This document shows, piece after piece, positions 17,463 to 37,946 of a stretch of 64,000 nt of DNA (positions within the stretch are counted from its first letter, which is position 1; every line of letters begins with the position of its first letter). Source of the stretch: Hwangdonia lutea (lineage in GTDB: Bacteria; Bacteroidota; Bacteroidia; Flavobacteriales; Flavobacteriaceae); assembly GCF_032814565.1 (NCBI RefSeq), contig NZ_CP136521.1, positions 1,522,501 to 1,586,500 of the forward strand, in the 5' to 3' direction. A model generated the notes under the pieces. The model was not told where the DNA came from, ran no database searches, and was given only the letters and a program-made list of their open reading frames with translations. The translations under genes were made by a program, and so were the position numbers.

Positions 17463-18311
17463 ATGAACATTGAAAAAAATATCATTATTGACGGCAAGCA
17501 CGATAAACCAATTTTAACCGACTTGTTTTTTAAAGACGACAGCACTAAAAAGCCGGTAATAATATTTTGTCATGGCTACAAAGGTTTTAAAGATTGGGGC
17601 GCATGGGATTTAATGGCGGAAGCATTTGCCAAAGCGGGTTTTTATTTTGTTAAATTTAATTTTTCACATAATGGAGGCACTGTAAAACAGCCCATTGATT
17701 TTCCCGATTTGGAAGCTTTCGGAAACAACAACTACACCAAGGAATTAGACGATTTAGAATCTGTTATCGATTGGGTTTGCAGCAATCCTAAGTTAAAAAA
17801 GAATGCCGATACAAACAGCATCACTTTAATGGGACATAGTAGAGCCGGCGGGATTGTAACTATAAAAGCTGAAGAAGATAACAGGATAAAAAACGTAATT
17901 AGTATTGCCGGTGTTTGCGATTTCGGGAAAAGAACAGCAACATCTGGTGATTTAGAACAATGGAAAAAAGACGGTGTAAAATATGTTTTAAACGGACGAA
18001 CAAAACAACAAATGCCGCATTACTATCAATTTTATGAAGATTTTATCGCCAACGAAAATAGGCTCACCATTAAACGCGCCGTATCGAATTTAAAAACCCC
18101 ATATTTAATAATTCATGGTGATAACGACACCAGTGTTTTTTTAGAGGAAGCAAAACTACTTAATCGTTGGAACCCGAACAGTCAGCTAGAAATTATTGAA
18201 GGTGCCAATCATGTTTTTGGAGCACAGCATCCTTGGGAAAAAACTACGTTACCCAATCAATTAAAACAGGTTATCACTAAGGTTATGGCTTTCTTATCAC
18301 ATCAAAAATAA
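17463..18311 (+). CDS. Alpha/beta hydrolase (dienelactone-hydrolase-like)
   Basis: A 282-residue cytosolic serine hydrolase. The nucleophile elbow is GHSRAGG near residue 125, the oxyanion region is FCHGYKGFKDWG, and a late GDND and ANHVFG supply the expected Asp and His. The fold class is clear. The substrate is not: such enzymes include esterases and small peptidases. It is translationally adjacent to the AddB-like gene with zero spacing, but no functional link is evident. Confidence 0.8.
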   Translation: MNIEKNIIIDGKHDKPILTDLFFKDDSTKKPVIIFCHGYKGFKDWGAWDLMAEAFAKAGFYFVKFNFSHNGGTVKQPIDFPDLEAFGNNNYTKELDDLESVIDWVCSNPKLKKNADTNSITLMGHSRAGGIVTIKAEEDNRIKNVISIAGVCDFGKRTATSGDLEQWKKDGVKYVLNGRTKQQMPHYYQFYEDFIANENRLTIKRAVSNLKTPYLIIHGDNDTSVFLEEAKLLNRWNPNSQLEIIEGANHVFGAQHPWEKTTLPNQLKQVITKVMAFLSHQK

Positions 18312-18333
18312 ATATTGATTTTAAAGATTTTAC

Positions 18334-20652
18334 TTATTCAATAACACTGAAACTTTTCTTTAAAGACGTTGTAGAATCGCCTCCCACCCAAACATTAAAT
18401 TTACCGGGTTCTACTTCCCACTTGTTATTTGCCGTGTAAAATTGAAGCATTTTAGCGTTTATAGTAAAATTAATGGTTTTGGTTTCCCCTCCTTTTAGCA
18501 TTACCTTTTCGAAACCTTTTAACTCTTTTACAGGTCTTACAAAGCTCCCAACCAAATCTCGAATATAAAGTTGCACAACTTCTTCCCCCGCTCTGTTGCC
18601 GGTATTGGTCACATTTACTGATGCTTTTATGTCGTCGCTAGCTTTAATTTCGGTTTTATCCAATTGTAAATTATCATAACTAAAGGTTGTATAACTCAAG
18701 CCAAAACCGAAGGGATACAATGCCTTTTTGGGCGCATCTCTGTAGCCGGAGAACGTAACGTGTTTATTGCTATACGGTCGTCCAGTGTTTTTTTGGTTGT
18801 AATATAAAGGCTCTTGACCAACGTTGTGCGGAAAAGATACCGGTAATTTTCCCGAGGGATTATAATCCCCAAAAACAACATCGGCAATGGCATTACCAGA
18901 TTCCGATCCTAAATGCCAGCACTCTAAAATGCTTGGTGCAATTTCAGAGGCACGACTTAAATCCATGGGCCTGCCATTCATTAAAACAATTACAATGTTT
19001 TTATTCACTTTATAAACCGCTTCCAGCAATTCATTTTGAAGCCCTAAAAAACCGATATTGGTTTGACTGCGCCCTTCGCCTGTTTGATACGCATTTTCAC
19101 CAATTGCCAATAAAACAACATCAGATTTTTTAGCAGCTTCAACGGCTTTTGTAATTCCCGAGTCATCTGTGGTGTTAAATTTTAAAGGTAATAAGAACTG
19201 ATTTGCTCCAGGCTCTATAGTTGGAATGGTTAAATCGACACCTTTTGCATAATGTATTTTGGTGTTTTCTCCAACAGCGTTTTTAATACCTTCCAATAAT
19301 GAAACTGCCGAATTATATTCCCCTTTGGCCCGCCAGTTTCCTAACGGTGAATCTTTATCATCTGCCAAGGGACCAATAACGGCAATACTTCTAATTTGTT
19401 TAGACAGTGGCAGCACGTTGTTTTCATTTTTAAGCAATACAATAGATTTTTTTGCAACATCGCGTGCTATGGCTAAGTTTTCTTTAGAGTACACATTATC
19501 TTTTTCGCGTTGCTCGTTGCAGTATTTGTAAGGATCATCAAAAAGTCCCAATTCAAATTTCAACCTTAAAACCCGTTTTACCGCATCATCAATTTGGTTG
19601 ATGGAAATCTTATTTTCGCTAAGTAAAGTTTCCAAATGTGCTTCGTAAGCATAGGATTCCATATCCATATCGCTTCCTGCATTTAAAGCTATTTCGGCAG
19701 CATGTTTTTTGTCTTCAGCATAACCATGTGCCCGCATTTCGCCAATGGAACCCCAATCTGAAACCACCAATCCATTCCAGTTCCATGCACCTTTCAAAAT
19801 ATCGCGTTGTAGAATTTTATGCCCTGTGGCAGGAATGCCATCAATATCGTTAAAAGCATTCATAAATGTTGCCGCACCTGCTTCGGCCGCTGCCTTAAAA
19901 GGTGGTAAAATGGTGTTGTGCAGCTCGTTTGCCCCAACATTAACGGTGTTGTAATCCCGACCAGCCTCTCCAAAGCCATAGCCTGCAAAGTGTTTAGCGC
20001 AAGCTGCAATGGTGTAAATATCAGATAAGTCGTCTCCTTGAAATCCTTCAATACGCGCCACGCCAACAACGGCATTTAAGTAAGGGTCTTCGCCAGCACC
20101 TTCCATAACGCGTCCCCAACGGGCATCTCTAGATACATCAATCATGGGCGCGAAGGTCCAATTTAAGCCCGAAGCAGCACTTTCTTTGGCTGCAATGGCG
20201 GCTGATTGTTTCATAATACCTAAATCCCAACTAGCCGTTTCACCCAACGGAATGGGAAATATGGTTTTATACCCGTGAATAACATCATAAGCAAAAATTA
20301 AAGGGATTTTAAGCCTTGAATGCTCCATAACAATTTTTTGGGTTTCCCGAATACTCGCCACAGACGTTATATTTAACATCGAACCCACCTCACCTTTTTT
20401 AAGCTTCTCAAATTTATGCTGATCGCCTTTTGTTGATGACGGTCCGGTAGCGTTCCATTTTCCACTGTATTGCACTAATTGCCCGATTTTTTCGTTTATC
20501 TGCATTAATGCCAAAACAGAATCTACCTTTTTTTCAATACTTTCATTTAAAGTTGAATGTTGGGGTTTAGTCGTTTCGTTTATACAGCTAAATACGGTAA
20601 TAATTAGACTCGAAATAATGATGAATTTTAAAGGAAGAATTGATATTTTCAT
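18334..20652 (-). CDS. GH3 beta-glucosidase, surface or periplasmic lipoprotein
   Basis: A 772-residue glycoside hydrolase family 3 enzyme of the BglX type. Lipobox VFSC puts the lipidated Cys at 23. The N-terminal TIM-barrel domain contains the nucleophile Asp299 (VVSDWGS) and the substrate pocket KHFAGYG. A C-terminal alpha/beta sandwich (about 390-620) and a fibronectin III-like domain (about 660-765) follow. It removes glucose from non-reducing ends of beta-gluco-oligosaccharides. It is the last gene of the minus-strand glucan locus and starts 14 bases after the stop of the 20667-21521 gene. It is the likely partner that finishes what the GH16 domain starts. Confidence 0.92.
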   Translation of the reverse strand: MKISILPLKFIIISSLIITVFSCINETTKPQHSTLNESIEKKVDSVLALMQINEKIGQLVQYSGKWNATGPSSTKGDQHKFEKLKKGEVGSMLNITSVASIRETQKIVMEHSRLKIPLIFAYDVIHGYKTIFPIPLGETASWDLGIMKQSAAIAAKESAASGLNWTFAPMIDVSRDARWGRVMEGAGEDPYLNAVVGVARIEGFQGDDLSDIYTIAACAKHFAGYGFGEAGRDYNTVNVGANELHNTILPPFKAAAEAGAATFMNAFNDIDGIPATGHKILQRDILKGAWNWNGLVVSDWGSIGEMRAHGYAEDKKHAAEIALNAGSDMDMESYAYEAHLETLLSENKISINQIDDAVKRVLRLKFELGLFDDPYKYCNEQREKDNVYSKENLAIARDVAKKSIVLLKNENNVLPLSKQIRSIAVIGPLADDKDSPLGNWRAKGEYNSAVSLLEGIKNAVGENTKIHYAKGVDLTIPTIEPGANQFLLPLKFNTTDDSGITKAVEAAKKSDVVLLAIGENAYQTGEGRSQTNIGFLGLQNELLEAVYKVNKNIVIVLMNGRPMDLSRASEIAPSILECWHLGSESGNAIADVVFGDYNPSGKLPVSFPHNVGQEPLYYNQKNTGRPYSNKHVTFSGYRDAPKKALYPFGFGLSYTTFSYDNLQLDKTEIKASDDIKASVNVTNTGNRAGEEVVQLYIRDLVGSFVRPVKELKGFEKVMLKGGETKTINFTINAKMLQFYTANNKWEVEPGKFNVWVGGDSTTSLKKSFSVIE

Positions 20653-20666
20653 GTTTTAATGCTGTT

Positions 20667-21521
20667 CTATTTTAAGGTTAATTCAATAAACACCGGAAAA
20701 TGATCGGATGGATATTTTAAATCTATGGAGCTTGATAAAACGCCGTATTTTTCGACTCCAATTTTTGAAGATTTTGATAACATGATGTAATCTATTCTTC
20801 GCTTAACAGGCTCGTTAAACTTGAAACCGTTGAATGTTCCGTTTGATCCAAAAACAAGTTTTGCTTTATCTTTTGAATCGTCTAGGGTTTGTTTAAGATT
20901 TGTGATGAGCTCACTTTGCGGCTCTACATTAAAATCGCCCATCATAACTACCGGAAAATCACTGGTGTTTAAAGCCTTTATTTTTTTAAGAATAAGTTGC
21001 ATGCCTTGTAACTGTGCTTCCCTTCCAACGTGGTCTAAATGCGTATTGAACACCCAAATTTTTTGATTATTTTCGAGTAAAGTAAAAAGTCCGTAAGTAC
21101 AAATTCTTGGATAGGCAGCATCCCAACCCATTGAGATTTGATTGGGCGTTTCAGATAACCAAAAGGTGTTTTCTTCTTCTACTTTTAGTTCTTTTGAATT
21201 GTAAAATATCGCTGAAAACTCGCCTTTATTATCGCCATCGCGACCAATGCCGATTGTTTTATAATCTATTAAGGCTTCTTTTAAATCTGCCATTTGATTG
21301 GGTCGCGCTTCCTGAACACCCAGAATATCCGGGCTGTAAAACAGTACTTGCGAGCTTAAAAAATCTTTTCTGTTTGCCCAGGCGTTCTCGTCATCGGAAG
21401 CTATGTCCAAACGGATGTTGTAAGTCATCACATTTAGGCTTTGGTTTGCTTGTTTTTTTTCGTTTTTACAACTAGAAAAACCGATAAACAAAATTAATAT
21501 CAGGTGTGTTAAATGCTTCAT
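20667..21521 (-). CDS. Endonuclease/exonuclease/phosphatase-fold lipoprotein
   Basis: A 284-residue lipoprotein (lipobox FSSC, Cys18) of the DNase I-like EEP superfamily. Family motifs are seen: MTYNIR, GVQEAR, THLDHVG, MGDFNVEP and SDHFPVF, giving the metal-binding Glu, Asp, Asn and catalytic His. Members cut phosphodiesters or phosphomonoesters in nucleic acids, sphingolipids or inositol phosphates. In this glycan locus, between GH3 and the GDPD-GH16 fusion (3-base gap), a role on a phosphate-bearing glycan or on released glycerol phosphate is more likely than nuclease action. That is inference from context. Confidence 0.85.
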   Translation of the reverse strand: MKHLTHLILILFIGFSSCKNEKKQANQSLNVMTYNIRLDIASDDENAWANRKDFLSSQVLFYSPDILGVQEARPNQMADLKEALIDYKTIGIGRDGDNKGEFSAIFYNSKELKVEEENTFWLSETPNQISMGWDAAYPRICTYGLFTLLENNQKIWVFNTHLDHVGREAQLQGMQLILKKIKALNTSDFPVVMMGDFNVEPQSELITNLKQTLDDSKDKAKLVFGSNGTFNGFKFNEPVKRRIDYIMLSKSSKIGVEKYGVLSSSIDLKYPSDHFPVFIELTLK

Positions 21522-21524
21522 TTT

Positions 21525-23120
21525 TTATTCTTCCTTTTGTTGAAAAACCCTAACATAATCGACTACCATTTGCTGCGGAAAAACAGAATCATCAATTCCT
21601 TTTTGTCCACCAAGCATGCCACCAACAGACACATTCATTATCAAATAAAATTCTTGATCAAAGGGCCATTCGGCTATGGTTTTATGTTCATTTTTTATAT
21701 GATTGTAAACGGTATCATTTAAAATAAAGTCCATTTTTTCATGAGTCCATTCTACTGCAAATACATGAAACGTCTCATAAGGTTTATCAATAAAAATCTT
21801 TTTTCCTCTCTCTGTACCTTTCATGTGATTAAAGGCTTTTGTGTGTATGGTTCCAAAAATAGAATCTGGGTTAAAACCAACATGTTCCATAATATCTATC
21901 TCGCCACATTCCGGCCAGCCAACTTCTTTTCTATTTTCGCCCAACATCCAAATGGCAGGCCACAATCCAACACCTCGAGGCAACTTCGCTCTTACTTCTA
22001 TGCGCCCATATTTCCATGAGGCTAAACCATCGGTTTTTAATCTTGCCGATGTGTATTGCGCGGTGTCAATTTCAGCAATATATTGCACCCAACTTTTGTT
22101 TTTAAACTCGTCGCTTTTGTATTTTGCGTTCGCTATTTTTTCTTTATGAGCTTCAATTATTAGCGTACCATTTTCAACTCTCGCATTTTTTAAGCTATCG
22201 GTGTAATATTGCTTTTCGCGGTTGCTTAAAAAACCGTAATCGTAAGCCCATTTGGTAGAATCTGGTTTTCCTTTGTAATTAAATTCGTCGCTCCAAACCA
22301 ATTTATAACCTCTTTTTGTTGGGCTTTTTTCGCTTCTTTTAAAAACAAGTTCTGGTTCATCTGTAGTGATGTAATCAAAATCGTTAGCTAAAAACCAATC
22401 GATATCTTCAGTTGAATTGACTGTCCAAGCATTTAATATTAAACCTTTTTCTTTGGCACTTGCTATCCATTCTGGACGTCTTTTATATTTATAAACTAAA
22501 TAGTCTAACCCAGTTATACCATCTTCCTTTAATCGTTTTGGTGCTTTAGAGCCATCTAAATATTGTGTTTTAGCATGTGCATCCAGTTCCTTTATTCTTT
22601 GTAAAATGGCATAACTGAAACTGATATACGACAAAATATAATTTTCTGCCTTAAGTTCTTTTACCAGTTTCAAAACATTTTCGGCCATTAAGGCATTTCG
22701 TCCTTCGGTTTTTGAAGGTTTTATTTCGCATACCAAACCCGTGGCATTGTTATTTTGCATTCCAGCAATGATATAATCTCTTAACGTTGGTAAGGTTTCG
22801 CCGTTTGAAAGTTTAAATTTTGATAATTGGGCATAGGTGGATTCTTCGATGAGTAAATCGTGATAATCGGCATCGTGGGTTACAATTAAAACATTATCGG
22901 ATGTCATTCTAACATCAAATTCTGAACCCGTACAACCCAAGTTTATAGCGTGTTTTAATGCAGCTATCGAGTTTTGCGGTAGGTTTTTTTGTTTCCATGC
23001 GCCGCGATGTGCCACCACGACATTATCAGCAAAAGTTATTGTTTTAGGCGAACTTGTTTGGCACCCATAAAAGCTGGCAATTAAGAATAAAAAAAACAAT
23101 TGAAGTGTGCTTTTTAGCAT
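21525..23120 (-). CDS. GDPD-GH16 fusion: glycerophosphodiesterase plus endo-beta-glucanase
   Basis: A 531-residue lipoprotein (Cys20) with two catalytic domains. Residues about 33-262 are a glycerophosphodiester phosphodiesterase: HRG at 38-40, Glu67 and Asp69, His82-Asp83, CEIKP near 131-135, AWTVN near 231-235 and a closing TTDEPE. Residues about 272-528 are glycoside hydrolase family 16 of the laminarinase/lichenase type, with the signature EIDIME placing the nucleophile at Glu407 and the acid/base at Glu412. Both active sites look complete. I infer cleavage of a beta-1,3 or mixed glucan together with removal of glycerophosphoryl groups. The frame is continuous through the junction. Confidence 0.9.
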   Translation of the reverse strand: MLKSTLQLFFLFLIASFYGCQTSSPKTITFADNVVVAHRGAWKQKNLPQNSIAALKHAINLGCTGSEFDVRMTSDNVLIVTHDADYHDLLIEESTYAQLSKFKLSNGETLPTLRDYIIAGMQNNNATGLVCEIKPSKTEGRNALMAENVLKLVKELKAENYILSYISFSYAILQRIKELDAHAKTQYLDGSKAPKRLKEDGITGLDYLVYKYKRRPEWIASAKEKGLILNAWTVNSTEDIDWFLANDFDYITTDEPELVFKRSEKSPTKRGYKLVWSDEFNYKGKPDSTKWAYDYGFLSNREKQYYTDSLKNARVENGTLIIEAHKEKIANAKYKSDEFKNKSWVQYIAEIDTAQYTSARLKTDGLASWKYGRIEVRAKLPRGVGLWPAIWMLGENRKEVGWPECGEIDIMEHVGFNPDSIFGTIHTKAFNHMKGTERGKKIFIDKPYETFHVFAVEWTHEKMDFILNDTVYNHIKNEHKTIAEWPFDQEFYLIMNVSVGGMLGGQKGIDDSVFPQQMVVDYVRVFQQKEE

Positions 23121-23264
23121 AAGAATACAATGACTAATTAAAAAGGAAATCTACGAAGTTAATAAAAGTGTTGAAATCTAAGGGCAATAAACTTACTTGC
23201 CCTTAGATTGAAAAACCAACACTATAAACTAAATCAAAAAAAGTGCTATTAATTTGTTCTTTAG

Positions 23265-24878
23265 TTAGTAACCGTCATTCTGTGGATAATCCGGACCCAG
23301 TAAATCCAAATCTATTTGTGCTATTGGAAAATTAATATAATGATCTTGCCAGTTTACCCTTGGATCTCTATCTCCCCCGAAATTATTGGGAAAATACGGT
23401 CCGTCACCGGCATAGTTTCTTATTTGGCGATTTATCACATCTTGTCCCATTCTTTTTAATGTAAACCAACGTTGTCCTTCAAAAGCGAGTTCGCGAGCGC
23501 GTTCATCTAATATAGCCTGCTCATCAACGCTTGTTAATGGTGTGGCATTTGCTCTTTCCCTAACTGCATTTATGTATGGTAAAGGATTGCCTGAAGACCT
23601 CATCATTGCTTCGGCAGCAATTAAATAGGTTTCGGCCAACCTATATACCATTATGTTGCTTTTATTTAGATACGAATCTGGATTGTCGTCTTCTTGTGCG
23701 AATTTGATACAAGAAGGGTGTTGTCTTTGATAATACCTTGTGTACGTGCTACTGGGGTTATTAAGATCGGTTATTGGTGCATAATTATCTACTTCTTCAC
23801 CAATTCTACTGCCCGATGTATAATAATATTTCAATCTAAAATACGTGTTGTCATCTCTAGTATCATTTGGATCTTCAGATAAAAGACCTAATAAATAAAG
23901 GTTTGGTAACACGCGTGAAAAACCTCTGCCACCCTGTTCAATATTTGACTCTATACCTGAAATCTGGAAATATTGGGTAACATAGTTTGCATTCATCATA
24001 GTGTCGTCTCCACCACCCAATAAATCATCTTTAGATTGAATAACGAATAACGATTCCGAATGGTTTCGATCACCTTTAAAAACATCTGCTGTGCTAGCTA
24101 CTAAGCTATGTGGGCTGTCTGGCCCTTCAATAACATCTAAGGCATGGGTTTTAGCTACCTCCCAATTGCCTTCCCACATTGCCACTTTTGCTTTTACGTG
24201 TTTTGCCGTGCCTTTTGTAACACGCCCAAAAGTGTCTGTCCATTCTAAGTGTTCAATGGCAAAATCCAGGTCGCTGTTTAATAGTGCAAAAATATCTTCT
24301 TTAGACGATTTAGCATTAATAACATTAAAGGCATTATCGACAGTTACCGTTTCGGTAGACACATAAATATTGTTAAACATTCTATATAAATAGAAATAAG
24401 AATTCGCTCTGAAAAACTTAGCTTCGGCAAGAACCTGGTTCCTAACATCTTCATCGATACCTTCTGCAACTTCGGCCGCATTAATTATTTCTGTAGCTTT
24501 ATTTGTAATGTTGTAAAAATGTTTCCAGAACAAAGTGGATACAAAATTGGCGCCTTGATCTACTGGCGAGACACCTCTTTGGTACCGCCCCATTAAACCT
24601 GTATAACCTGTTCTGCTAAATGCCAAATCACTTCTGGACGACATTAAAACCGCTCCCATAAAATCCTCTATACGTCGGTCATACCTATCTCTGTTAAACT
24701 TATAAAGGCTTACCACGCCAGATTTTAAACCTTCTTCGGTCGTGTAAATGTAATCGGAATCAATTAATGTACTTGGTTGTTCTTCTAAGAACTCTTCGCA
24801 AGAAAACACAACAAAGCATAGCGCCAGAGCTAGCAGCAAGTTGCCTTTTAGTTTTGAATATATAAACTTCGCTTTCAT
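23265..24878 (-). CDS. SusD/RagB-family glycan-binding lipoprotein
   Basis: A 537-residue surface lipoprotein (lipobox VFSC, Cys27) that captures oligosaccharides and caps the SusC channel at 24896-27973. Helical TPR-like SusD features are present: FLEEQPST near the N-terminus, FFRANSYFYLYRMF, and the C-terminal YRLAETYLIAAEAMM and ERARELAFEGQRWF blocks typical of the family. It follows susC by 17 bases on the minus strand and precedes the GDPD-GH16 gene. Ligand preference cannot be read directly; the neighbouring hydrolases point to beta-glucan. Confidence 0.94.
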   Translation of the reverse strand: MKAKFIYSKLKGNLLLALALCFVVFSCEEFLEEQPSTLIDSDYIYTTEEGLKSGVVSLYKFNRDRYDRRIEDFMGAVLMSSRSDLAFSRTGYTGLMGRYQRGVSPVDQGANFVSTLFWKHFYNITNKATEIINAAEVAEGIDEDVRNQVLAEAKFFRANSYFYLYRMFNNIYVSTETVTVDNAFNVINAKSSKEDIFALLNSDLDFAIEHLEWTDTFGRVTKGTAKHVKAKVAMWEGNWEVAKTHALDVIEGPDSPHSLVASTADVFKGDRNHSESLFVIQSKDDLLGGGDDTMMNANYVTQYFQISGIESNIEQGGRGFSRVLPNLYLLGLLSEDPNDTRDDNTYFRLKYYYTSGSRIGEEVDNYAPITDLNNPSSTYTRYYQRQHPSCIKFAQEDDNPDSYLNKSNIMVYRLAETYLIAAEAMMRSSGNPLPYINAVRERANATPLTSVDEQAILDERARELAFEGQRWFTLKRMGQDVINRQIRNYAGDGPYFPNNFGGDRDPRVNWQDHYINFPIAQIDLDLLGPDYPQNDGY

Positions 24879-24895
24879 AATATTATTTTTTTTAA

Positions 24896-27800
24896 TTAAA
24901 ATTTAACTCTTACACCAAAGGTGAAACTCGTTGCATCTGGATACCCTGTATCTGCATTAGAAAATGTATTTCTAATATTTACCTCAGGGCTATATCCTAT
25001 ATAATCTGTGTTGGTAAACAAGTTAGTGCCTGTTGCGTAAAACCTAATCTGCTCTAAGTTTAAACTAGATGAAATAGCCTCAGACAGCGTGTAGCCCAAA
25101 CTAACTGTTCTTAACCTTATATACGATGCATCTTTAATAGCCAAAGAATTTAAATACAGTGGTGCAGTATCAAAATTAGGTCTTGGAAAGGTTGTAGATG
25201 GATTTTCTGGTGTGTAATAATCTACTTTTACACCGTTTAACTTCCCTGATAAAGTCCCCCCATTATTAAATTCTGATAAAAATGGGTTTCTTTTTGTAGC
25301 CCCTTCTACGGCGTAAAAATCTACAAATAAATCGAAACCTTTGTAAGCAACTGTTGTTGATAAAGAACCAAACCAGTCTGGATTAGGGTCTTTAAAAACC
25401 CTGTCTTCTTGGGTTATTTTACCGTCTGGAACTCCCGTTTTATTGCCTTGGTCATCTACACCGTTGGTGTCTTTAATTTTAATGTCTCCAGGCCTGAGGT
25501 TGTCTTGTGTTAAGGCAGAGTCTGGATTGGCCTGTGGTGCATTTGCAAAATCGTCGCCTTCTTGCCAAATGCCATCAAATTCATATTGGTAAAGGACGCC
25601 TACTGGTTGGCCAACGTAGTAGTTAAATGCGTCGTCTTCTAAAATAGGGTTCCCATCGCCATCATTATAAAGTTCTATCAATTTGTTTTTATTGTTAGAC
25701 CAGTTAGTAGATATTGACCATTTAAAATCATTTTTATTGATTATATTTGCAGTTAAGCTCAATTCGATACCAGAGTTTTGCAATTCTCCGGCATTAAAGA
25801 AGGTATATTGGTAACCTGTTATTGATGGTACACCTCGACGCAATAACAAATCGGTAGTTCTAGCATCGTAGTAATTAATATTACCTACTAAAACCCTTTT
25901 AAACATTGAAAAGTCCAATCCAAAGTTTAAGGTTGTTATTCTTTCAAACTTTAAATCTGGATTGGGCAAAATAACTGATGGCGAATAGCCTGATGCAGAT
26001 TCAGCATCGAATATATAGTTTTGTCCTTCTGCTGTAAAAAGCGATGTGTATGCACGCCCAAGATCGTTTACCAAAGCGCCATAACTGGTTCTTAATTTTA
26101 ACTCATTTATAGCTTCAACATCTTCTAAAAAAGGCTCTTTATGTATTTGCCATGCAAAAGAAGCTGCCGGATTAAAGCTCCACTTATTGTTTTTAGAGTT
26201 TACTGATGCTCCATCTCCTCTTGCTGTGGCCTCAAACAAATATCTGTTCTTTAAATTATATCTTGCTCTTGCCATAAAAGATGCCAATCTCTGTTTATTT
26301 TTATCACGCTCTACGGTTACATTACCAATGGCATTTGTTATGCCATCATACCCCAAGCTTTCATTTGTAAACCCTTGTGCTTCGGTAAATGTTCGAGAAA
26401 ATTGATTTTCTTGTGCAGATTGTACCAGCGTTACATTTAGTTTATGGTCATCGCTAAAAGCTTTATCGTAGGTTAATATGTTTTCAATTAGATATGATTC
26501 CCTTAATCGATTATCGATTCTTGCAACTCCATCAACGTCATCGCCCGCTGAACTTAATGACGATTGATATTGGCCTCTTTCTGAAGTCCTTCTTGTTAAG
26601 TTAGTTTTTAATTGGTACGTTAAATCATTTGTAATTTTCCAGATTGGAGTTACGTTTATTACAAAATCGTTTCCTTTTTCTTCATTAGTCTGCTCTCTAA
26701 GGTTCCATATTGGATTTACTGCCGATAATTCCTCGCCACTTGGGAATTGGGTGAGGTTTCCATTATCATCATAAGCTCTTCCTAAGGGTGAAATTGTAAT
26801 TACGTTTACGTTTGCAGCTCTATCGGTATCATCGTTTAAAATGTTCAAATCAAAATTTACCGAAAGCTTATTACTAATTTTTTGATCTACGTTTAATCGC
26901 AATGTTTTTCTAACATAGGCAGAATTTGGTATTAGGCCATCTTCTTTAAAGTAATTGATACTCCCGAATACTTTAGTCATATCGGTACCACCACTAATGC
27001 TAATGGCTTGACTATTGACTGAGCCATTTTTTACCAACTCATTTTCCCAGTCCACAAATTGGTTATTTGCGATAGACTCTAGTTCTAAAGCTGAGAAAAT
27101 ATCTTCATCGTTTGGATATGAGTCATCTGCGATGGTAGACCTAACAGCTTCCCGTCGCAATTGTGCAAATTCTTGACCGCTATAAACATCGAAATTACGC
27201 TCAATGGATTTTGTTGTAATATAACCGTGATAATTTACACTTACTTTACCAGATTTACCTCGTTTTGTAGTTACCAAAACAACCCCATTTGCGCCTCTAG
27301 AGCCATAAATAGCTTGAGCCGAGGCATCTTTAAGAAATTCGATAGACTCAATGTCATCAGAGTCGATGTCTTCAATACCACCATCTCTTATAATGCCATC
27401 TACTACATATATCGCACTTACGCTACCTTCAATAGAGCCTTGGCCTCTAAAGATAATATCTGATGTTCCGCCTGGTCTTAATGTGCCTCCTCCTACATCA
27501 ACTTGCAAACCTGCAATTCTACCTCTCAGCATTTCATTAACATCAGAGGTTGGTGTTAATACAGCCTCTTCCATATTGGCAGTAGCCACGGCATTAACAA
27601 TATCGCTTTTACGTTGCGTACCGTAACCTACAACAACAACTTCGTCTAGCACATTTTGATCGATATTCAATAAAATGGTTAAGGCCCCAGAAGTTATGGC
27701 GACCTCTTTAGTTTGGTAGCCTAAGTAGGAAACCGTTAGTGTAGTCGCGGTATTATTTACAGAGAATGAGAAGTTACCATCAAAATCTGTCGATGTTCCG

Positions 27801-27973
27801 TTTGTAGTTCCTTTAACAACTACCGATGCTCCGGGCAAGGGCATATTATCTTCTGCTGAACGTACTGAGCCTGTTATTGTTTTTTCATTTTGTGCCAACG
27901 CTACGGTTGTTGCAAACAAAAACAATAATAAGAACAGCACTTTATTTTTTTGATTAAAAAGTTTCAATTTCAT
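24896..27973 (-). CDS. SusC/RagA-family TonB-dependent outer-membrane transporter
   Basis: About 1025 residues from the ATG at 27973 (nine codons upstream a TTG could extend it). A signal peptide ends near VALAQ. A carboxypeptidase-regulatory-like domain follows (GASVVVKGTTNGTSTDFDGNF). The TonB box/plug begins DEVVVVGYGTQRKSD with IYGSRGANGVVLVTTKRG, and the rest is a 22-strand barrel ending in an aromatic residue (VRVKF). It imports glycan fragments bound by the SusD partner. It is the first structural gene of the glucan operon, with a tandem 11-bp repeat about 250 bases upstream. Confidence 0.95.
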   Translation of the reverse strand: MKLKLFNQKNKVLFLLLFLFATTVALAQNEKTITGSVRSAEDNMPLPGASVVVKGTTNGTSTDFDGNFSFSVNNTATTLTVSYLGYQTKEVAITSGALTILLNIDQNVLDEVVVVGYGTQRKSDIVNAVATANMEEAVLTPTSDVNEMLRGRIAGLQVDVGGGTLRPGGTSDIIFRGQGSIEGSVSAIYVVDGIIRDGGIEDIDSDDIESIEFLKDASAQAIYGSRGANGVVLVTTKRGKSGKVSVNYHGYITTKSIERNFDVYSGQEFAQLRREAVRSTIADDSYPNDEDIFSALELESIANNQFVDWENELVKNGSVNSQAISISGGTDMTKVFGSINYFKEDGLIPNSAYVRKTLRLNVDQKISNKLSVNFDLNILNDDTDRAANVNVITISPLGRAYDDNGNLTQFPSGEELSAVNPIWNLREQTNEEKGNDFVINVTPIWKITNDLTYQLKTNLTRRTSERGQYQSSLSSAGDDVDGVARIDNRLRESYLIENILTYDKAFSDDHKLNVTLVQSAQENQFSRTFTEAQGFTNESLGYDGITNAIGNVTVERDKNKQRLASFMARARYNLKNRYLFEATARGDGASVNSKNNKWSFNPAASFAWQIHKEPFLEDVEAINELKLRTSYGALVNDLGRAYTSLFTAEGQNYIFDAESASGYSPSVILPNPDLKFERITTLNFGLDFSMFKRVLVGNINYYDARTTDLLLRRGVPSITGYQYTFFNAGELQNSGIELSLTANIINKNDFKWSISTNWSNNKNKLIELYNDGDGNPILEDDAFNYYVGQPVGVLYQYEFDGIWQEGDDFANAPQANPDSALTQDNLRPGDIKIKDTNGVDDQGNKTGVPDGKITQEDRVFKDPNPDWFGSLSTTVAYKGFDLFVDFYAVEGATKRNPFLSEFNNGGTLSGKLNGVKVDYYTPENPSTTFPRPNFDTAPLYLNSLAIKDASYIRLRTVSLGYTLSEAISSSLNLEQIRFYATGTNLFTNTDYIGYSPEVNIRNTFSNADTGYPDATSFTFGVRVKF

Positions 27974-28224
27974 TCGAGTGTAGTTTAATGTTAGTTTCAA
28001 AAAAAATAGTTTATGCTGATTTTACCTTTAGTTAAAAAATCAATCAATGTAAACTTAACCTCAAATGCTGAGAAATCCGCAATATAATAGCCGATAAAAA
28101 ACGAACATGGCAACAAAACCAACTGAGATTCGATATTTTGTCAGCGCAAAACCCTGTAAACACTGAGCAATCAGAATTTCATATTTTTTATATAAATGCT
28201 TAAAAAACAAGTGGTTTTATGCAC

Positions 28225-28246
28225 ATGTCGTGGTAATGTCGTGGTA
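28225..28246 (-). promoter_or_regulatory. Tandem 11-bp repeat, possible activator site for susC
   Basis: ATGTCGTGGTA occurs twice head to tail at 28225-28235 and 28236-28246, one helical turn apart. It lies between the regulator stop (28268) and the susC start (27973). A related ACGACTTGTCGT palindrome follows at 28252-28263. The spacing suits a dimeric or cooperative DNA-binding protein. Confidence 0.5.
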
Positions 28247-28267
28247 AAATAACGACTTGTCGTGTTG

Positions 28268-31036
28268 CTAAAATTTTAAGATGTACTCCACAAGACCATC
28301 ATCGTGCTCCAAACCTAGTTTTTTTCTTAATCGGTAGCGTTTGGTTTCAACGCTTTTTATAGATATATTAAGCAATGGCGCCATTTCTTTTGAAGATAAA
28401 TTAAGGCGTAAATAGGCGCAAAAACGTAGGTCGTTTGGGGTTAAATCGGGGTGTGAACTTTTTATTTTTTCTAAAAAATCTTTATCCGCATTGTTAAAAG
28501 CCTGTTCGAAAAAAGACCAATCTTTTGTATCATTTAAATTACTATTTATAAGTTCTATGGCCGTATTGTTATCAATATGTTTTGTTTTTTTAAGCTCTTT
28601 TTTAATCTTGTTTAAAACCCTATTCTTTTTAATAATACTCATAGTAGATATAGCCAACTCCCTGTTTTTATTATCTATATCCTGATTTAGTTTTTCGTTT
28701 TTTATCTGCATAATCATTTGTTCATTCTCCATTTGTTCGTGCTTAAACTTTTCTGAATAATAGCGTTTATAAGCTTTATGCGTAATTAAAATAATGATTA
28801 AAAGCAGCAGAACATAAAGGGACAAAGCCGTGTTTGAAAGGTACCACGGTCTGCTAACAGTAAAACTGTAAGACAATGTGTTTTTAGAAAGTGCGTTTCC
28901 AACCTTAGCACGCGCCATAAAGGTATAATCGCCAAACGACAGATTTTCGAAGGTAACTTGGGTGTTTTCAGTCCACTTGCTCCACTTATTTGAATGCCCT
29001 TCAAGCATGTATTGGTATTTAACGTTTAAGTATTTGTGATACTCGGGCACTGAATAATTAAAAGACAACAAGCCCTGTTTGTAATTAAACACTCCATTGG
29101 TGTTTAGCGCATAATGGCTATTATTATCATCAACATCTTGTATGGCAATTGAATTTAAAAAGATTTCATAATCTATGTCATCATTAAATTTTGATAGATC
29201 CAATGTCATGTAACCATTTGCCGTACCCAATACATAGGTTGAGCGATTAATAAGCGAAATATTCTCGTAACCCAAAACACCTTTTCTTAATTTTGAAGGA
29301 ATAGGAATATTGTTGATAACTGGTTGGTTTGTAACATCGTCGTTTTCAACAAAGCTTATGTTGTCTTTTGAAAACGCCCAAAGTTTTTCGTTTTTATCTA
29401 CTACTAATTTGCCTGAAATATAGTCGCCACTTTTAATAATTTTACTTAAAATGGAATCTCTTTGAAACGCATTTTTGGTTGTATTATATATAAAAAGCCC
29501 TTCTTCGGATGCATAATGAATATCATTTTTATATTTTATTAAACTCGAATTTTTCCCCAAAGGCAAACTTGTTTCCATGTCTAATTTTTGCACTTTGGTC
29601 AGGCTGTCATTCAGCTTTAATTTAAACACGCCTTTATATTCGTGGCTCACCCAAATCTGATTTTCATCATCAATTTCTAAATATCGTGATGAGTTTTTAA
29701 AGCCTTCAACTTTATTTCTTATACGCCAAAAATTATTCACTTTTTCAAGGATGAATAAGCCATTATAATTTCCTTGAAGCAAAAGATTTTGTTGCTCTGG
29801 AATGCGCTTAAAAGTCCACGCCCCTAATACGCTACTTATTTTGTTTGCTTTATTTTCTACAATTAAAAACGTACCCAAATGATGCCCACAAAATAAATAC
29901 TCATCATTATAATTAAACAAATCCCAAACCTGTCCAGCGGTGCCTTCAATAAACCTAAACGTATCATCATCAGCTTTTAATCGCCTATAAAACAAACCTT
30001 GGTTAGAGCCAATATACAACACGTTTTTAAACACTTGCGTTGTGTATACGGTGCCTAAAACGCCATCGTAATCAAAAAAAGTTTTTATGGCAGATTTTAC
30101 ATTTATGCAATTAATACCGTTGTCTAAACCCGCCCAAACATTGTTTGCATTATCTTCAAATAGCGACAAAACGGTGTTGTTGCTTAGTCCTTTTTTTTGA
30201 GTGATTTGGTAATTTATTGTTCCGTTTTCTGATATGTGCAACACGCCATCGGAAATAGTGCCTATCATAAAACTTTTGTCCTTTAACTGAATGCTACTAA
30301 AAACGCTCATGGTATTTAAAACCGCATCGGCTTTTATGTTCCACGGTATTAATTGATTGTTTTTAATTTTATAAAACCCTGCGTTTCGCGTTATGATGAT
30401 TAAGCTTTCTTTGCCGTTGAACATATTGATTACACGCCCCGATTTTACAATGTCACTATCAATAATGAGTTTGGGTTTACCTTCTTCAATAGTATAAATA
30501 CCTTCATTGGCAACGTGATAATAGATCTGATTTTTAACCTTAAAAGTTTTGTAAATGATATTGGATGCCTTAACAATTTTAAAGGTTTCGGTTTGCGAAT
30601 TGTAAAAATAAATTTTGGCGTTAGACTGAAAAACCACCCATTCGTTGTACTCAATAATGTTCCAAATCTGTTCGTCTTCCAACATCTTCTTATCAAGTTT
30701 AGAAGACAACGACAGATAGTTTAGTGTACCAAATTCGTTTTTATTCCAATAGCCAAACTCAGCATAACAACCTGTGTATATTTTATCTTTAATAACATTT
30801 ACGGCCCTAATTATGGTGTTGTTTGGTGAGGCATAAGTTGTCCATTCTGCGCCATTATATTCCAACAAGCCTTTATTATTGGCAACATATATAAAATTAT
30901 TTGATGCCTGGGAAAGCATCCAATTTTGGTTGTCTCCCAAATAATTTTCAGCACTAAATTTTTCAATAGGAGGCAATTCCTGACTAAAAGACAACAGGCT
31001 TAACAAGATTAAAAAAACGCTCTTTAAAATTTTCAT
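28268..31036 (-). CDS. Periplasmic-sensor LuxR-type regulator (Reg_prop/Y_Y_Y)
   Basis: A 922-residue one-component membrane regulator. A signal peptide is followed by a two-component-regulator-propeller-type sensor (repeats such as NNVWAGLDNGIN and NQIWVSHEYKGVFKL) to about residue 640. A Y_Y_Y domain (YQYMLEGHSNKWSKW) follows, one membrane helix near 745-765, and a charged coiled coil. The C-terminal LuxR-type HTH (LTPNDLRFCAYLRLNLSSKEMAPLLN then SVETKRYRLRKKLGL) is clear. There is no kinase domain. It probably senses a glycan breakdown product and activates the susC operon just downstream on the same strand. Confidence 0.88.
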   Translation of the reverse strand: MKILKSVFLILLSLLSFSQELPPIEKFSAENYLGDNQNWMLSQASNNFIYVANNKGLLEYNGAEWTTYASPNNTIIRAVNVIKDKIYTGCYAEFGYWNKNEFGTLNYLSLSSKLDKKMLEDEQIWNIIEYNEWVVFQSNAKIYFYNSQTETFKIVKASNIIYKTFKVKNQIYYHVANEGIYTIEEGKPKLIIDSDIVKSGRVINMFNGKESLIIITRNAGFYKIKNNQLIPWNIKADAVLNTMSVFSSIQLKDKSFMIGTISDGVLHISENGTINYQITQKKGLSNNTVLSLFEDNANNVWAGLDNGINCINVKSAIKTFFDYDGVLGTVYTTQVFKNVLYIGSNQGLFYRRLKADDDTFRFIEGTAGQVWDLFNYNDEYLFCGHHLGTFLIVENKANKISSVLGAWTFKRIPEQQNLLLQGNYNGLFILEKVNNFWRIRNKVEGFKNSSRYLEIDDENQIWVSHEYKGVFKLKLNDSLTKVQKLDMETSLPLGKNSSLIKYKNDIHYASEEGLFIYNTTKNAFQRDSILSKIIKSGDYISGKLVVDKNEKLWAFSKDNISFVENDDVTNQPVINNIPIPSKLRKGVLGYENISLINRSTYVLGTANGYMTLDLSKFNDDIDYEIFLNSIAIQDVDDNNSHYALNTNGVFNYKQGLLSFNYSVPEYHKYLNVKYQYMLEGHSNKWSKWTENTQVTFENLSFGDYTFMARAKVGNALSKNTLSYSFTVSRPWYLSNTALSLYVLLLLIIILITHKAYKRYYSEKFKHEQMENEQMIMQIKNEKLNQDIDNKNRELAISTMSIIKKNRVLNKIKKELKKTKHIDNNTAIELINSNLNDTKDWSFFEQAFNNADKDFLEKIKSSHPDLTPNDLRFCAYLRLNLSSKEMAPLLNISIKSVETKRYRLRKKLGLEHDDGLVEYILKF

Positions 31037-31160
31037 TTATTAATTAGAATTGAAAGCAATGAACCGTTTGTGCTTTCTTTTGAATAAAGATAGTTTTAGA
31101 AAACGACTAAACAAAATCACCTACTAAAGTCCTGAAACGAACTGTTCGCTTTTGAAAATT

Positions 31161-31889
31161 TTAAGACAATGCCAACATTAATAAAGATGCTAAACATGCG
31201 CCGATAATAGGACCAAAAACAGGAATCCAAGCATAGCTCCAATCACTTGCTGCCTTGTTTTTTATGGGAAGTAGGGCATGAACAATTCGCGGGCCTAAGT
31301 CACGTGCCGGATTAATAGCATATCCTGTTGTGCCACCCAACGACAAACCGATAGACCAAACCAAAAAAGCCACCGGTAACGCCCCTAAAGAACCTAAACC
31401 AATAACGGTTTCCGTCTCATTTATTGTAGCATTTGTAAAGTATAAAATGGTAAATATGAGCACAAAAGTACCCACGGCTTCGCTAAAAAAATTAGAAAAC
31501 GTATGCCTTATGGCTGGTGCCGTACAGAACACTGCTTTTTTGGTATCGGCATCTTCGGTTTCATCAAAATGATTTTTATAAAACATCCAAACCGCAGAAG
31601 ACCCTAACATAGCACCAAGCATTTGGGCTAAAATATATAGCGGTACATCGCTCCAAGGAAATTTTCCTGCGACTGCTAAACTAATACTCACAGCGGGATT
31701 TATGTGTGCACCGCTGTAAGGTCCCGCAATAACCACGGCCACATAAACCGCCAAGGCCCAACCCGTGGTTATTACAATCCAACCGCTATTATTGCCTATG
31801 GTTTTGTTTAAAATCACGTTTGCCACAACGCCACCGCCCAATAAAATAAGTATGGCTGTTCCTATAATTTCTGCAATAAATGGTGTCAT
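31161..31889 (-). CDS. glpF: Glycerol uptake facilitator (MIP family)
   Basis: A 242-residue six-helix channel with both NPA motifs: GAHINPAVSI near residue 65 and GYAINPARDLGPR near residue 190. Asp after the second NPAR is the hallmark of aquaglyceroporins (GlpF) rather than water-only aquaporins. It lets glycerol cross the inner membrane. It follows glpK on the minus strand after 200 bases, and the glucan regulator follows it after 124 bases. Its position between the glycerol enzymes and the glucan locus is the physical link between the two. Confidence 0.92.
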   Translation of the reverse strand: MTPFIAEIIGTAILILLGGGVVANVILNKTIGNNSGWIVITTGWALAVYVAVVIAGPYSGAHINPAVSISLAVAGKFPWSDVPLYILAQMLGAMLGSSAVWMFYKNHFDETEDADTKKAVFCTAPAIRHTFSNFFSEAVGTFVLIFTILYFTNATINETETVIGLGSLGALPVAFLVWSIGLSLGGTTGYAINPARDLGPRIVHALLPIKNKAASDWSYAWIPVFGPIIGACLASLLMLALS

Positions 31890-32089
31890 AGTGGTTTCTG
31901 ATTTACAATTAACGATTTTTTGATTATATGATTTAAGACCGCTGCACTATAGCGCAAACGGCAAAGAACTTACTCGAAACTAATTTATAATTTATTTCTT
32001 TCGATTTATTCAAGGTTGGTGATTTTTATTTTGGTGAACTATTTTGCGGTTGTAAGTTTCCTCTCCTCCGACAAGATCATAGGATAAGG
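31890..32089. other. Gap between glpK and glpF
   Basis: About 200 AT-rich bases without a gene. A lone CGAAAC half-site near 31975 resembles the DeoR-type operator repeats upstream of glpD, but no tandem copy is present. No terminator is obvious. Confidence 0.5.
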
Positions 32090-33586
32090 CTATTTATCTT
32101 TTGTCCAATATTCCAAAGCATCAATAGCTTTGTACCAGCCTTTGATGTTTTCATCGATAACGGCTCTTTTTTCAGTAGGCTTAAAGTGTTTATCTGTTTG
32201 CCATATTTGTTGAATTTCTTCAGGGTTATCCCAATAGCCCACAGCCAATCCTGCTAAAAATGCAGCACCCATGGCCGTGGTTTCTACCACTTTAGGGCGT
32301 ACGGTTTCGGTATTTAAAACATCGGCTTGAAATTGCATAAGCGAATTATTTACCGTAGCTCCGCCATCTACCCGCAACTCTTGTATCGAAATTCCGGAAT
32401 CGGCTTCCATAGCTTTTAACACATCCATGGTTTGATAAGCAATCGACTCTAATGCTGCCCGGGCAATGTGCGCATCGGTGCTGCCTCGCGTTAACCCAAA
32501 AATGGTGCCTTGTGCTTGCTGGTTCCAATGTGGTGCACCCAAGCCAGCGAATGCGGGCACAAAATATACACCTTCTGAACTCGACACCGAACTTGCAAGT
32601 GTTTCAACCTCTGATGAATTTCTAATAATTTTCAAGCTATCTCTTAACCATTGCACTACGGCTCCGGCAATAAATATGCTGCCTTCCAAAGCATACGATG
32701 TTTTTCCGTTTATTTTCCAAGCTACCGTGGTAAGTAAGTTGTTTTTAGAAACGGTTGGTTTATCGCCAATATTCATCAACATAAAGCACCCCGTTCCGTA
32801 AGTGTTTTTTACCATGCCCGGTTTGGTACACATTTGTCCGAATAATGCCGCTTGTTGATCGCCAGCAATTCCAGAAATAGGAATGTTGGCATCGTAAAAC
32901 GTAGATTTGGTGTGCCCGTAAACCTCGCTCGATTGTTTTACCTCCGGAAGCATGCTTTTGGGAATGGTTAATAATTCTAATAAATTATCATCCCAATCCA
33001 TGGTGTTTATATTGAACAGCAAGGTTCGTGACGCATTGGTAACATCGGTAATATGCTGATTGCCTTTTGTAAAGTTCCATATTAACCAAGTATCAATTGT
33101 GCCCAAAAGAAGTTCGCCAGATTCCGCTTTTTGCCGTGCACCTTCAACATGGTCTAAAATCCATTTTACTTTTGTGCCCGAAAAATACGAATCGATTACC
33201 AATCCTGTCTTTTCCCTTATCGTTTTTTCGTGCCCTTGTTTTTTAAGTTCATCGCAATAATTAGAGGTTCTTTTGTCTTGCCAAACAATAGCATTATAAA
33301 CGGGCTTGCCTGTTTTTTTATCCCAAACAACAACGGTTTCACGTTGATTGGTAATACCAATAGCAGCAATATTTTCAACATTCAATCCTTGTTTTGCAAT
33401 CGCTTCTGCAGCTACTCCAGCTTGCGAAGACCAGATTTCCAACGGATCGTGTTCCACCCACCCCGGTTTAGGAAAATATTGGGTAAACTCTTTTTGAGCC
33501 AACGAAATGATGCTTCCTTTTTTATCAAAAACTATGGCTCTGGAACTTGTTGTTCCTTGGTCTAAGGCTAGTATGTATTTTTCCAT
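32090..33586 (-). CDS. glpK: Glycerol kinase
   Basis: A 498-residue FGGY-family kinase making sn-glycerol 3-phosphate from glycerol and ATP. The N-terminal phosphate-binding loop [14 protein letters not shown], the substrate region [11 protein letters not shown], the FGGY signature region and the C-terminal [17 protein letters not shown] all match GlpK. Length is typical. It lies 16 bases downstream of glpD, and both are on the minus strand with glpF after them. Control is probably by the divergent DeoR regulator through the glpD promoter. Confidence 0.97.
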
Positions 33587-33602
33587 AATAATGATTTGTT
33601 AG

Positions 33603-35171: not shown

Positions 35172-35210
35172 ATCAACTTTTTTTTTGCTTTGATTATTTA
35201 TATTTATTTT

Positions 35211-35218
35211 CAAATGTA
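35211..35218 (-). promoter_or_regulatory. -7 box of the glpD promoter
   Basis: TACATTTG on the minus strand matches TAnnTTTG, with a TTG 23 bases upstream as a possible -33. Transcription would begin about 30 bases before the TTG start at 35171. This supports that start over the upstream ATG. Confidence 0.6.
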
Positions 35219-35232
35219 TCAAAATTAATTTT

Positions 35233-35252
35233 AAAACGAAACAAAACGAAAC
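35233..35252. promoter_or_regulatory. Tandem AAAACGAAAC operator upstream of glpD
   Basis: Two perfect 10-bp copies in tandem (35233-35242 and 35243-35252), starting 14 bases upstream of the -7 box and covering the -33 region. Direct repeats of GAAAC (TTTC in reverse) on one face of the helix are the kind of site bound by AgaR-type DeoR proteins, and a DeoR gene is divergent next to it. Confidence 0.65.
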
Positions 35253-35311
35253 TATTTTATGAAATAAGCGACAAAAATTAAAATAATTAACTTCGTTTAT
35301 CTTCATTTACT

Positions 35312-35319
35312 TATATTTG
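35312..35319 (+). promoter_or_regulatory. Candidate -7 box for the DeoR gene (near leaderless)
   Basis: TATATTTG, ending 5 bases before the ATG at 35325. This is the same geometry as at 9526-9533 before the AddA-like gene. Confidence 0.4.
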
Positions 35320-35324
35320 ATTAT

Positions 35325-36077: not shown

Positions 36078-36085
36078 CAGCTGTT

Positions 36086-37558: not shown

Positions 37559-37587
37559 GATTGGTTTTATTAAATTTTGTTTAGTTT

Positions 37588-37595
37588 CAAATTTA
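37588..37595 (-). promoter_or_regulatory. -7 box of the sulfatase promoter
   Basis: TAAATTTG on the minus strand (TAnnTTTG), 29 bases upstream of the sulfatase ATG at 37558. The operator at 37609-37628 begins 13 bases further upstream. Confidence 0.55.
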
Positions 37596-37608
37596 CTAAA
37601 AATTATCT

Positions 37609-37628
37609 AAAACGAAACTAAGTGAAAC
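37609..37628. promoter_or_regulatory. AAAACGAAAC-TAAGTGAAAC operator upstream of the sulfatase
   Basis: The first 10 bases are identical to each half of the glpD operator. The next 10 (TAAGTGAAAC) keep the GAAAC core at the same 10-bp period. Offset from the -7 box is 13 bases against 14 at glpD. Confidence 0.6.
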
Positions 37629-37677
37629 TAATTTAATTATTTTTTTGATACCAAATCGTGAATTATGTACAAATAAG

Positions 37678-37710: not shown

Positions 37711-37719
37711 CTATTACTG

Positions 37720-37917: not shown

Positions 37918-37946
37918 CACCGGTATTTAGGGGGGAATTTATTAAA

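Follow-up and report, generated by a model that had tools for sequence, protein, structure and literature searches.

The genome of Hwangdonia lutea encodes a protein in which a glycerophosphodiesterase (GDPD) domain is joined to a GH16 glucanase domain, both with intact active sites, and the gene for this fusion lies in an operon together with genes for a SusC/SusD pair, an EEP-family protein, a GH3 enzyme and the glycerol functions GlpF, GlpK and GlpD. We read this locus as a putative polysaccharide utilization locus for a glycerophosphorylated beta-(1,3)-glucan, with a probability that we put at roughly 45%; the substrate and the two activities of the fusion protein are predictions. Positions given below are those of the window, i.e. 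the whole stretch of 64,000 nucleotides that was analysed (positions 1,522,501 to 1,586,500 of contig NZ_CP136521.1), and loci are numbered with an L.

A single protein with two intact active sites

The fusion is encoded on the minus strand by one frame that starts with an ATG at position 23120 and runs without interruption to 21525, specifying a protein of 531 amino acids whose signal peptide carries a lipobox-like Cys20. An earlier, sequence-only reading of this DNA had described a continuous frame here, giving no strand, and had named as active-site residues HRG 38–40, E67, D69, H82-D83, CEIKP 131–135, E407, D409 and E412, all of which we find at those positions. The GDPD domain (PF03009, residues 38–257, 22350–23009 on the minus strand) is identified by Pfam (E 1.3e-24, 88.1 bits against a cut-off of 23.6), by conservation, and by a fold match to 3no3 (Z 34.0). 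The GH16 domain occupies residues ~269–528 (21537–22316, minus strand), with PF00722 matching residues 347–508 (E 4.2e-21, 75.6 bits against a cut-off of 22) and laminarinases or beta-1,3(4)-glucanases as the nearest solved structures. GH16 enzymes of the laminarinase type have the catalytic motif ExDxxE (Glu-x-Asp-x-x-Glu), which appears in the window protein as E407-I-D409-I-M-E412. In the GDPD half, the phosphate-binding His and Arg, the metal-binding Glu, Asp and Glu, and the second His of the inserted segment are H38, R39, E67, D69, E132 and H82; pairing residues by motif rather than by alignment, their counterparts in GlpQ, with roles as given in PMC7086022, are H43, R44, E70, D72, E152 and H85.

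Aligning the window protein with 56 other unique fusions, we found H38, R39, G40, E67, D69, H82, E132, K134, E407 and D409 in 57/57 sequences, E412 in 56 (the remaining one has Q) and D83 in 55. Near-invariance at these sites bears out the earlier description of both active sites as complete, and confirms that a GDPD-GH16 fusion with two intact sites is real. The GDPD half is a predicted glycerophosphodiester hydrolase and the GH16 half a predicted cutter of beta-1,3 or mixed-linkage glucan. We note that a loose lipobox pattern is matched by 28 of the 56 homologues, a count to be read knowing that the pattern misses at least one evident lipobox (L064). The pattern fails in 17 of 21 Pedobacter copies, which resemble plain signal peptides, and lipoprotein anchoring is for that reason not general to the fusions.

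A solved homologue

The sequence-only reading knew of no characterised enzyme of this architecture; however, a Pedobacter terrae protein with the same two domains has been solved by crystallography (PDB 7WW4/7WWC, 'multidomain beta-1,3(4)-glucanase', released 2023-02-15), and these entries match both halves of the window fusion. The title names the glucanase alone, and 7WWC was crystallised with laminaritriose. The fusion at L096 (P. terrae DSM 17933) closely resembles the crystallised chain without being identical to it. Modelling of the domain orientation, which had been proposed along with the earlier reading, gave a template-free AlphaFold2 model from 13 aligned fusions (mean pLDDT 86.1, pTM 0.83) that superposes on 7WWC with Z 43.2 and an rmsd of 1.5 Å over 472 residues at 47% identity. 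As modelled, the window fusion has the same domain order and mutual orientation as the 7WW4-type protein. A 2025 paper (PMC12448869) describes 7WWC as the P. terrae glucanase A0A1G7XNR7, with no accompanying publication available, and in the same paragraph also puts this code on a Bacillus xylanase, evidently by a slip. In the open-access literature that we searched we found no sign of GDPD-activity testing for the 7WW4/7WWC protein and, besides PMC12448869, no paper on a GDPD-GH16 protein or such a locus among the titles and abstracts listed. The architecture is thus known structurally, and its function is unclaimed as far as our literature search reached.

The fusion recurs across Bacteroidota

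Searching for the architecture in Bacteroidota, as the sequence-only reading had suggested, we sampled 397 genomes of the same family, at least 13 of which (that of H. lutea among them) have the fusion in full length, the other copies being 52–78% identical to it. This count is a lower bound because weaker relatives are reported per single domain, with 339 of the 397 genomes matching either half. At least 47 full fusions were present among the best 79 loci from a scan of GTDB contigs and, once three duplicates had been removed, all loci collected gave 56 distinct fusions besides that of the window, spread across Bacteroidota. Carriers in the scan include Tamlana, Flavivirga, Algibacter, Lutibacter, Aureibaculum, Gelidibacter, Polaribacter, Psychroserpens, Winogradskyella, Cellulophaga and Flavobacterium, and also Saccharicrinis, Draconibacterium, Fulvivirga, Runella, Sediminibacterium, Aureispira, several unclassified MAGs and 21 Pedobacter. 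In Fulvivirga sp. M361 (L077, 9938–12396) a further, free-standing GDPD gene comes immediately after the fusion.

A careful GH16 tree was built from 75 of 111 rows (the other 36, which included near-duplicates and long rows, were thinned out on the basis of locus number). Every fusion in this tree falls within one 51-row clade (99/98), and the fusions form a single clade in 0/200 bootstrap trees. The fused state requires 8 changes on the careful GH16 tree, at least five of them forced by starred branches, and 11 on a quick GDPD tree. The clade that holds the fusions also contains solo GH16 rows with neither a GDPD nor an EEP gene nearby (e.g. L049, L112, L118, L120 and L140). These trees are compatible with either of two histories, namely repeated fusion, or one early fusion that was split again several times.

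The fusion gene lies among glycan and glycerol genes

Nine minus-strand genes follow one another in the order glpD, glpK, glpF, regulator, SusC, SusD, fusion, EEP and GH3, separated by 16, 200, 124, 267, 17, 144, 3 and 14 bp. At the head of the series are a GlpD-like glycerol-3-phosphate dehydrogenase (33603–35306; its best model stays under the cut-off, and translation probably starts downstream of 35306), the glycerol kinase GlpK (32090–33586; TIGR01311, 758.9 bits against a cut-off of 590) and a MIP-family channel that is glpF-type by context (31161–31889; PF00230, TIGR00861). The genome has no second close copy of GlpK, and the FGGY kinase that comes next is 25% identical. A sensor-regulator (28268–31036) has Y_Y_Y and Reg_prop matches above cut-off and a LuxR-type HTH (GerE) match one bit below. 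It is followed by a SusC-like TonB-dependent receptor (24896–28000; TIGR04056, with a listed TTG start and a true start that is probably somewhat later) and a SusD-like outer-membrane lipoprotein (23265–24878; Pfam). Past the fusion come the EEP-family protein (20667–21521; PF03372, with a lipobox-like signal peptide and 3MPR and 4C1R as nearest solved structures) and a GH3 beta-glucosidase of the BglX type (18334–20652; PRK15098, 791.6 bits against a cut-off of 666). Divergent from glpD, on the plus strand, is a DeoR/GlpR-type regulator (35325–36077; all models below cut-off), and beyond it, again on the minus strand, an S1 sulfatase-family enzyme with the motif CSPSR (36086–37558), whose orthologues lie within the fusion cluster in some relatives. 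Scanning 18000–38000 with a strict Bacteroidota-type promoter pattern gave a single match on the minus strand, at 35245–35211; because this falls inside the listed start of glpD, it suggests that the true start lies further downstream.

With its SusC/SusD pair, glycan-active enzymes and regulator, the window has the gene set of a polysaccharide utilization locus, and the locus is best filed as a predicted Bacteroidota polysaccharide utilization locus, in a variant with a GDPD-GH16 fusion and glycerol genes. Another SusCD locus of the genome (L167), with a GH16 and a GH30 homologue, lies ~1.3 Mb away; we count it in favour of the phosphoglycerol-glucan reading.

Elsewhere in the window, a second SusC/SusD-like pair and a second DeoR/GlpR-type regulator are transcribed divergently (48958–54459); the second protein of the pair has no NCBIfam match at 1e-15 and is judged SusD-like by position only. 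Genes for a BioF/Kbl-type PLP enzyme, an enzyme resembling DgcA or L-Ala-D/L-Glu epimerase, and an FAD oxidoreductase-like protein are clustered at 54545–58994 and, together with a PBP4-type carboxypeptidase (47616–48881), possibly serve the use of D-amino acids or muropeptides; all of these matches are below curated cut-offs. A second sulfatase-family gene of the window (58999–60525) has a weaker match to arylsulfatase models.

EEP and glycerol genes keep company with the fusion in the same family

To set the neighbourhood of the fusion against that of GH16 genes at large, we compared 11 fusion loci from the same family whose flanks are complete (the window itself and L044, on a 7.9-kb contig, excluded) with 20 control GH16 loci of the same family, taken in the order of the search list and skipping those near contig ends, those from repeat genomes and those with a fusion or split pair. 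An EEP gene is present at 11 of the fusion loci, glpF at 6, glpK at 4 and the sulfatase at 3, whereas among the controls EEP occurs once and glpF, glpK, glpD and the sulfatase are each found at 0/20. No control has a GDPD match above 100 bits (L149 has one of 19 bits), and two control genomes (G133 and G322) have a split pair or fusion elsewhere. Fisher values for these counts take no account of the relatedness of loci and serve for description only. The notion that the window holds an ordinary laminarin locus is weakened by these controls.

Four GH16-only loci that match the query better than the controls do, and that were fetched before them and left out of the count of 20 (L046, L047, L049 and L058), have an EEP gene in three cases (not L049) and glp genes in 0/4; pooled with the controls, they give EEP at 4/24 and glpF at 0/24. 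The single control with an EEP gene, L150, groups with one GH16-only locus in a quick GH16 tree. Taken from these gene neighbourhoods, the pattern is that EEP follows the fused GH16 lineage even where GDPD is missing, and that glpFK follows GDPD.

Over all 56 unique fusions, EEP accompanies 23, GlpF 12, GlpK 12, GH3 17, the sulfatase 6 and the regulator 22. In Winogradskyella echinorum (L073) the fusion, SusCD and glpKF are present and EEP is absent. Around a fixed set of regulator, fusion and EEP, the SusCD pair is one of two distinct types (SusC/SusD or SusC2/SusD2), and the porin has therefore been exchanged around a constant core. Among the 22 loci for which the arrangement was listed, EEP lies on the same strand no more than 37 bp past the fusion in 21, the exception being L070, in which a second GH16 gene intervenes. 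The EEP residues E71, H161, D163, D196, N198, D273 and H274 are invariant across 34 aligned sequences, and the window EEP matches 4C1R (deposited as a mannosyl-6-phosphatase) with an E of 7.2e-51, from which we infer a sugar- or glycerol-phosphate phosphatase, kin of the 4C1R type. We note that the EEP gene also occurs at loci with no GDPD at all (L046, L047, L058 and L150), where its neighbour is a GH16 gene from the fused lineage or close to it. EEP therefore need not serve the diesterase, and it may have a wider role on beta-glucans. These loci make the phosphoglycerol-glucan reading, its stronger form included, somewhat less likely, and make somewhat more likely a rival, set out below, in which the two halves of the fusion act on two foods.

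GDPD genes that are not fused

A GH16 gene is found within the 20-kb stretch at 5 of 13 fetched same-family loci with a non-fused GDPD above 200 bits (lower-scoring GDPD matches from the 397-genome search fall outside this set). Specifically, GDPD adjoins a separate GH16 gene in L051 and L053, the order glpK-glpF-GDPD-GH16 is seen in L052 (on the same contig as L078, from Cerina litoralis), and the order GDPD-GH2-GH16-GH16-EEP in L055 and L056. Since the GH16 proteins of L053, L055 and L056 belong to another, well separated GH16 lineage, the pairing of GDPD with GH16 arose more than once and involves two or more GH16 lineages.

Three Winogradskyella-type loci (L050, L110 and L113) lack GH16 but have GDPD together with glpKF, SusCD and a regulator, and two of them also have EEP. 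Their GDPD proteins group with four fused ones in a quick tree (SH-aLRT 91), GH16 was probably lost from them, and glucan cutting would therefore be dispensable there. Looking for GH16 remnants behind the Winogradskyella and Gelidibacter GDPD genes, we found none that is convincing (two pieces, E 0.34 and 0.75). In Gelidibacter (L114 and L115), genes for GlpD, GDPD and EEP are consecutive. Judged from these gene orders, the tie of GDPD to glycerol genes persists where GH16 does not.

A proposed pathway for a glycerophosphorylated glucan

The sequence-only reading had predicted a substrate that carries glycerophosphoryl groups on a beta-1,3 or mixed-linkage glucan. This stands as our leading, still conditional, reading, fits the glpF-glpK-glpD, EEP, SusCD and GH3 genes, and is here sharpened to beta-(1,3). 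Its named examples, osmoregulated periplasmic glucans and rhizobial cyclic glucans, have to be corrected: beta-1,2 linkages make up the periplasmic glucans of enterobacteria and those cyclic glucans of rhizobia that are best known, and we know of no GH16 enzyme for that linkage. A glycerophosphorylated cyclic beta-(1,3)-glucan is made by Pseudomonas aeruginosa PA14 under ndvB (PMC2997053, PMC10237404), and an MdoB-like transferase that draws phosphoglycerol from phosphatidylglycerol has been proposed (PMC10237404). Phosphatidylglycerol bears an sn-glycerol-1-phosphoryl group, and GlpQ of B. subtilis is specific for the sn-3 form (PMC7086022).

In the pathway that we propose, SusCD would take in glucan fragments, the GH16 half of the lipoprotein would cut the beta-1,3 (or mixed) backbone, and the GDPD half would strip phosphoglycerol substituents that might otherwise block further trimming. 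EEP would then dephosphorylate the freed glycerol phosphate, or phosphate left on glucose, GH3 would trim the bare oligosaccharides to glucose, and glycerol would enter through GlpF to be used by GlpK and GlpD. If the substituent originates from phosphatidylglycerol, the sn-1 isomer would be released and would have to pass through glycerol. Because sn-glycerol-1-phosphate (Gro1P) is not known to be usable by GlpD, release of this isomer would explain a phosphatase paired with GlpF and GlpK. The architecture, the intact sites, the recurrence, the operon and its partner genes are observed directly; both activities, the order in which they act and the compartment where they do so, as well as the substrate and its isomer, are what we infer.

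Favouring the phosphoglycerol-glucan reading are the intact sites, the enrichment of EEP and glpF, the tight spacing of EEP, the split pairs, the GlpD-GDPD-EEP order, the kinship to 4C1R and the laminaritriose complex. Against it, EEP accompanies only 23 and GlpF only 12 of the 56 fusions, EEP occurs beside GH16 genes without GDPD, W. echinorum has the fusion without EEP, the Winogradskyella-type loci have GDPD without GH16, and the sulfatase is left unexplained by a glycerophosphorylated glucan. In addition, glpK has no second close copy, so glpFKD may be the general glycerol operon, placed here for convenience; its adjacency could reflect shared regulation rather than shared substrate. The known glycerophosphorylated glucan comes from Pseudomonas and may be uncommon in these habitats, which also counts against the reading. 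A stronger form of it we consider doubtful, namely that the locus encodes a pathway, the first to be known, for breaking down the glycerophosphorylated beta-(1,3)-glucans found in bacterial biofilms and periplasms, in which the bifunctional enzyme would strip sn-glycerol-1-phosphate and cut the ring or chain, EEP would yield glycerol, and GlpK would re-phosphorylate it.

Were the phosphoglycerol-glucan reading true, an enzyme found phylum-wide that is both diesterase and endo-glucanase would be a tool for removing glycerophosphoryl decoration, polysaccharide loci of Bacteroidota would be linked to scavenging on Proteobacteria, and a function could be given to the GDPD half of 7WW4. The substrate question is directly testable with one purified protein.

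Alternative explanations

The rival that survives best holds that the GDPD half scavenges free glycerophosphodiesters of deacylated phospholipids while the GH16 half cuts laminarin or a fungal or algal beta-glucan, the two being joined since lysed cells supply both; we regard this as a real, if tentative, possibility. Its best support comes from Pedobacter and from L045, the contexts of which allow another use of the same protein. At the 21 Pedobacter fusion loci, EEP and glp genes are found in 0/21 (which likewise tells against the phosphoglycerol-glucan reading), a SusC match lies somewhere in the stretch in 7, and in 16 the next gene downstream, after a gap of 17–514 bp, encodes a homologue of phosphocholine-specific phospholipase C. 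The copy in L096 (11617–13998) scores 743 bits with TIGR03396 against a cut-off of 580, and the copies in other Pedobacter loci were assigned by comparison with this one only. In L045 the fusion lies with two GH30 genes, GH2, a second GH16, GH3 and a sugar porter, as for branched laminarin. A use of GDPD apart from glucan cutting is also suggested by the Winogradskyella-type loci, which have the one and lack the other, and GlpQ-type enzymes accept many head groups (PMC7086022). Two separate foods fit less well with the GDPD counts, since GDPD above 100 bits is missing from all 20 control GH16 loci, yet accompanies some members of one GH16 lineage, and the tight fusion-EEP operon with SusCD argues for a single glycan.

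We think it improbable that the GDPD half removes some other phosphodiester substituent, whether from cyclic glucans (phosphocholine or phosphoethanolamine) or from the wall glucan of fungi (a GPI-type remnant). Many alcohols are accommodated by the GDPD fold, and phosphocholine-bearing cyclic beta-(1,3)(1,6)-glucans occur in Bradyrhizobium, but glpF and glpK in the cluster point to a glycerol product.

Sulfatase genes raise the further prospect that the glucan is only a minor part of the substrate, which would be either an exopolysaccharide with both sulfate and glycerophosphoryl groups or a poly(glycerol phosphate) of the teichoic-acid type that bears glucose. Orthologues of the S1 sulfatase above 500 bits, whose nearest solved relatives are carrageenan sulfatases, have CSPSR in 9/9 rows, one of which is that of the window and two of which (L055 and L119) come from a single contig. 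They lie between EEP and GH3 in L035, L036 and L055, directly past EEP in L040, and near the fusion in L066, L076 and L079, which would imply sulfate somewhere in some variants of the substrate. GDPD-fold domains also occur in staphylococcal phage proteins (9f5m and 9eul), which presumably have a role with teichoic acid. We nevertheless hold such a substrate to be very improbable, as the GH16 half is of the laminarinase type and only 6 of the 56 unique fusion loci have the sulfatase.

An assembly artefact joining two genes near residue 265, which the sequence-only reading had listed among its refuting conditions, is rejected as next to impossible: nothing was found in its favour, and the junction recurs in full-length matches from many independent genomes as well as in the protein that was crystallised.

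Comparison with known systems

The protein crystallised from P. terrae (7WW4/7WWC) shares with the window fusion the order of GDPD then GH16, but its gene adjoins that for a phospholipase C, and no SusC, EEP, GH3 or glp gene was found in the 21 kb covered. Taken by halves, the C-terminal part of the window protein matches the GH16 laminarinases (3ILN from Rhodothermus, SCLam 6XOF and ZgLamA 4BQ1) in fold and catalytic residues, these enzymes lacking the GDPD half, and the N-terminal part matches the GDPD/GlpQ phosphodiesterases (3NO3, 2PZ0 and GlpQ 5T9C) in fold and in phosphate- and metal-binding residues, although those were solved as single-domain proteins. As a locus, the window has SusCD, GH16, GH3 and a regulator in common with the laminarin utilization loci of Flavobacteriia, and differs from the control loci in combining GDPD, glpFKD and EEP. 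In the yeast-mannan pathway of Bacteroides a mannosyl-6-phosphatase, which we take to be BT3783 (4C1R), takes off phosphate left on the glycan. The window EEP is related to this enzyme and would act alike if it dephosphorylates after diester cleavage, on a different glycan.
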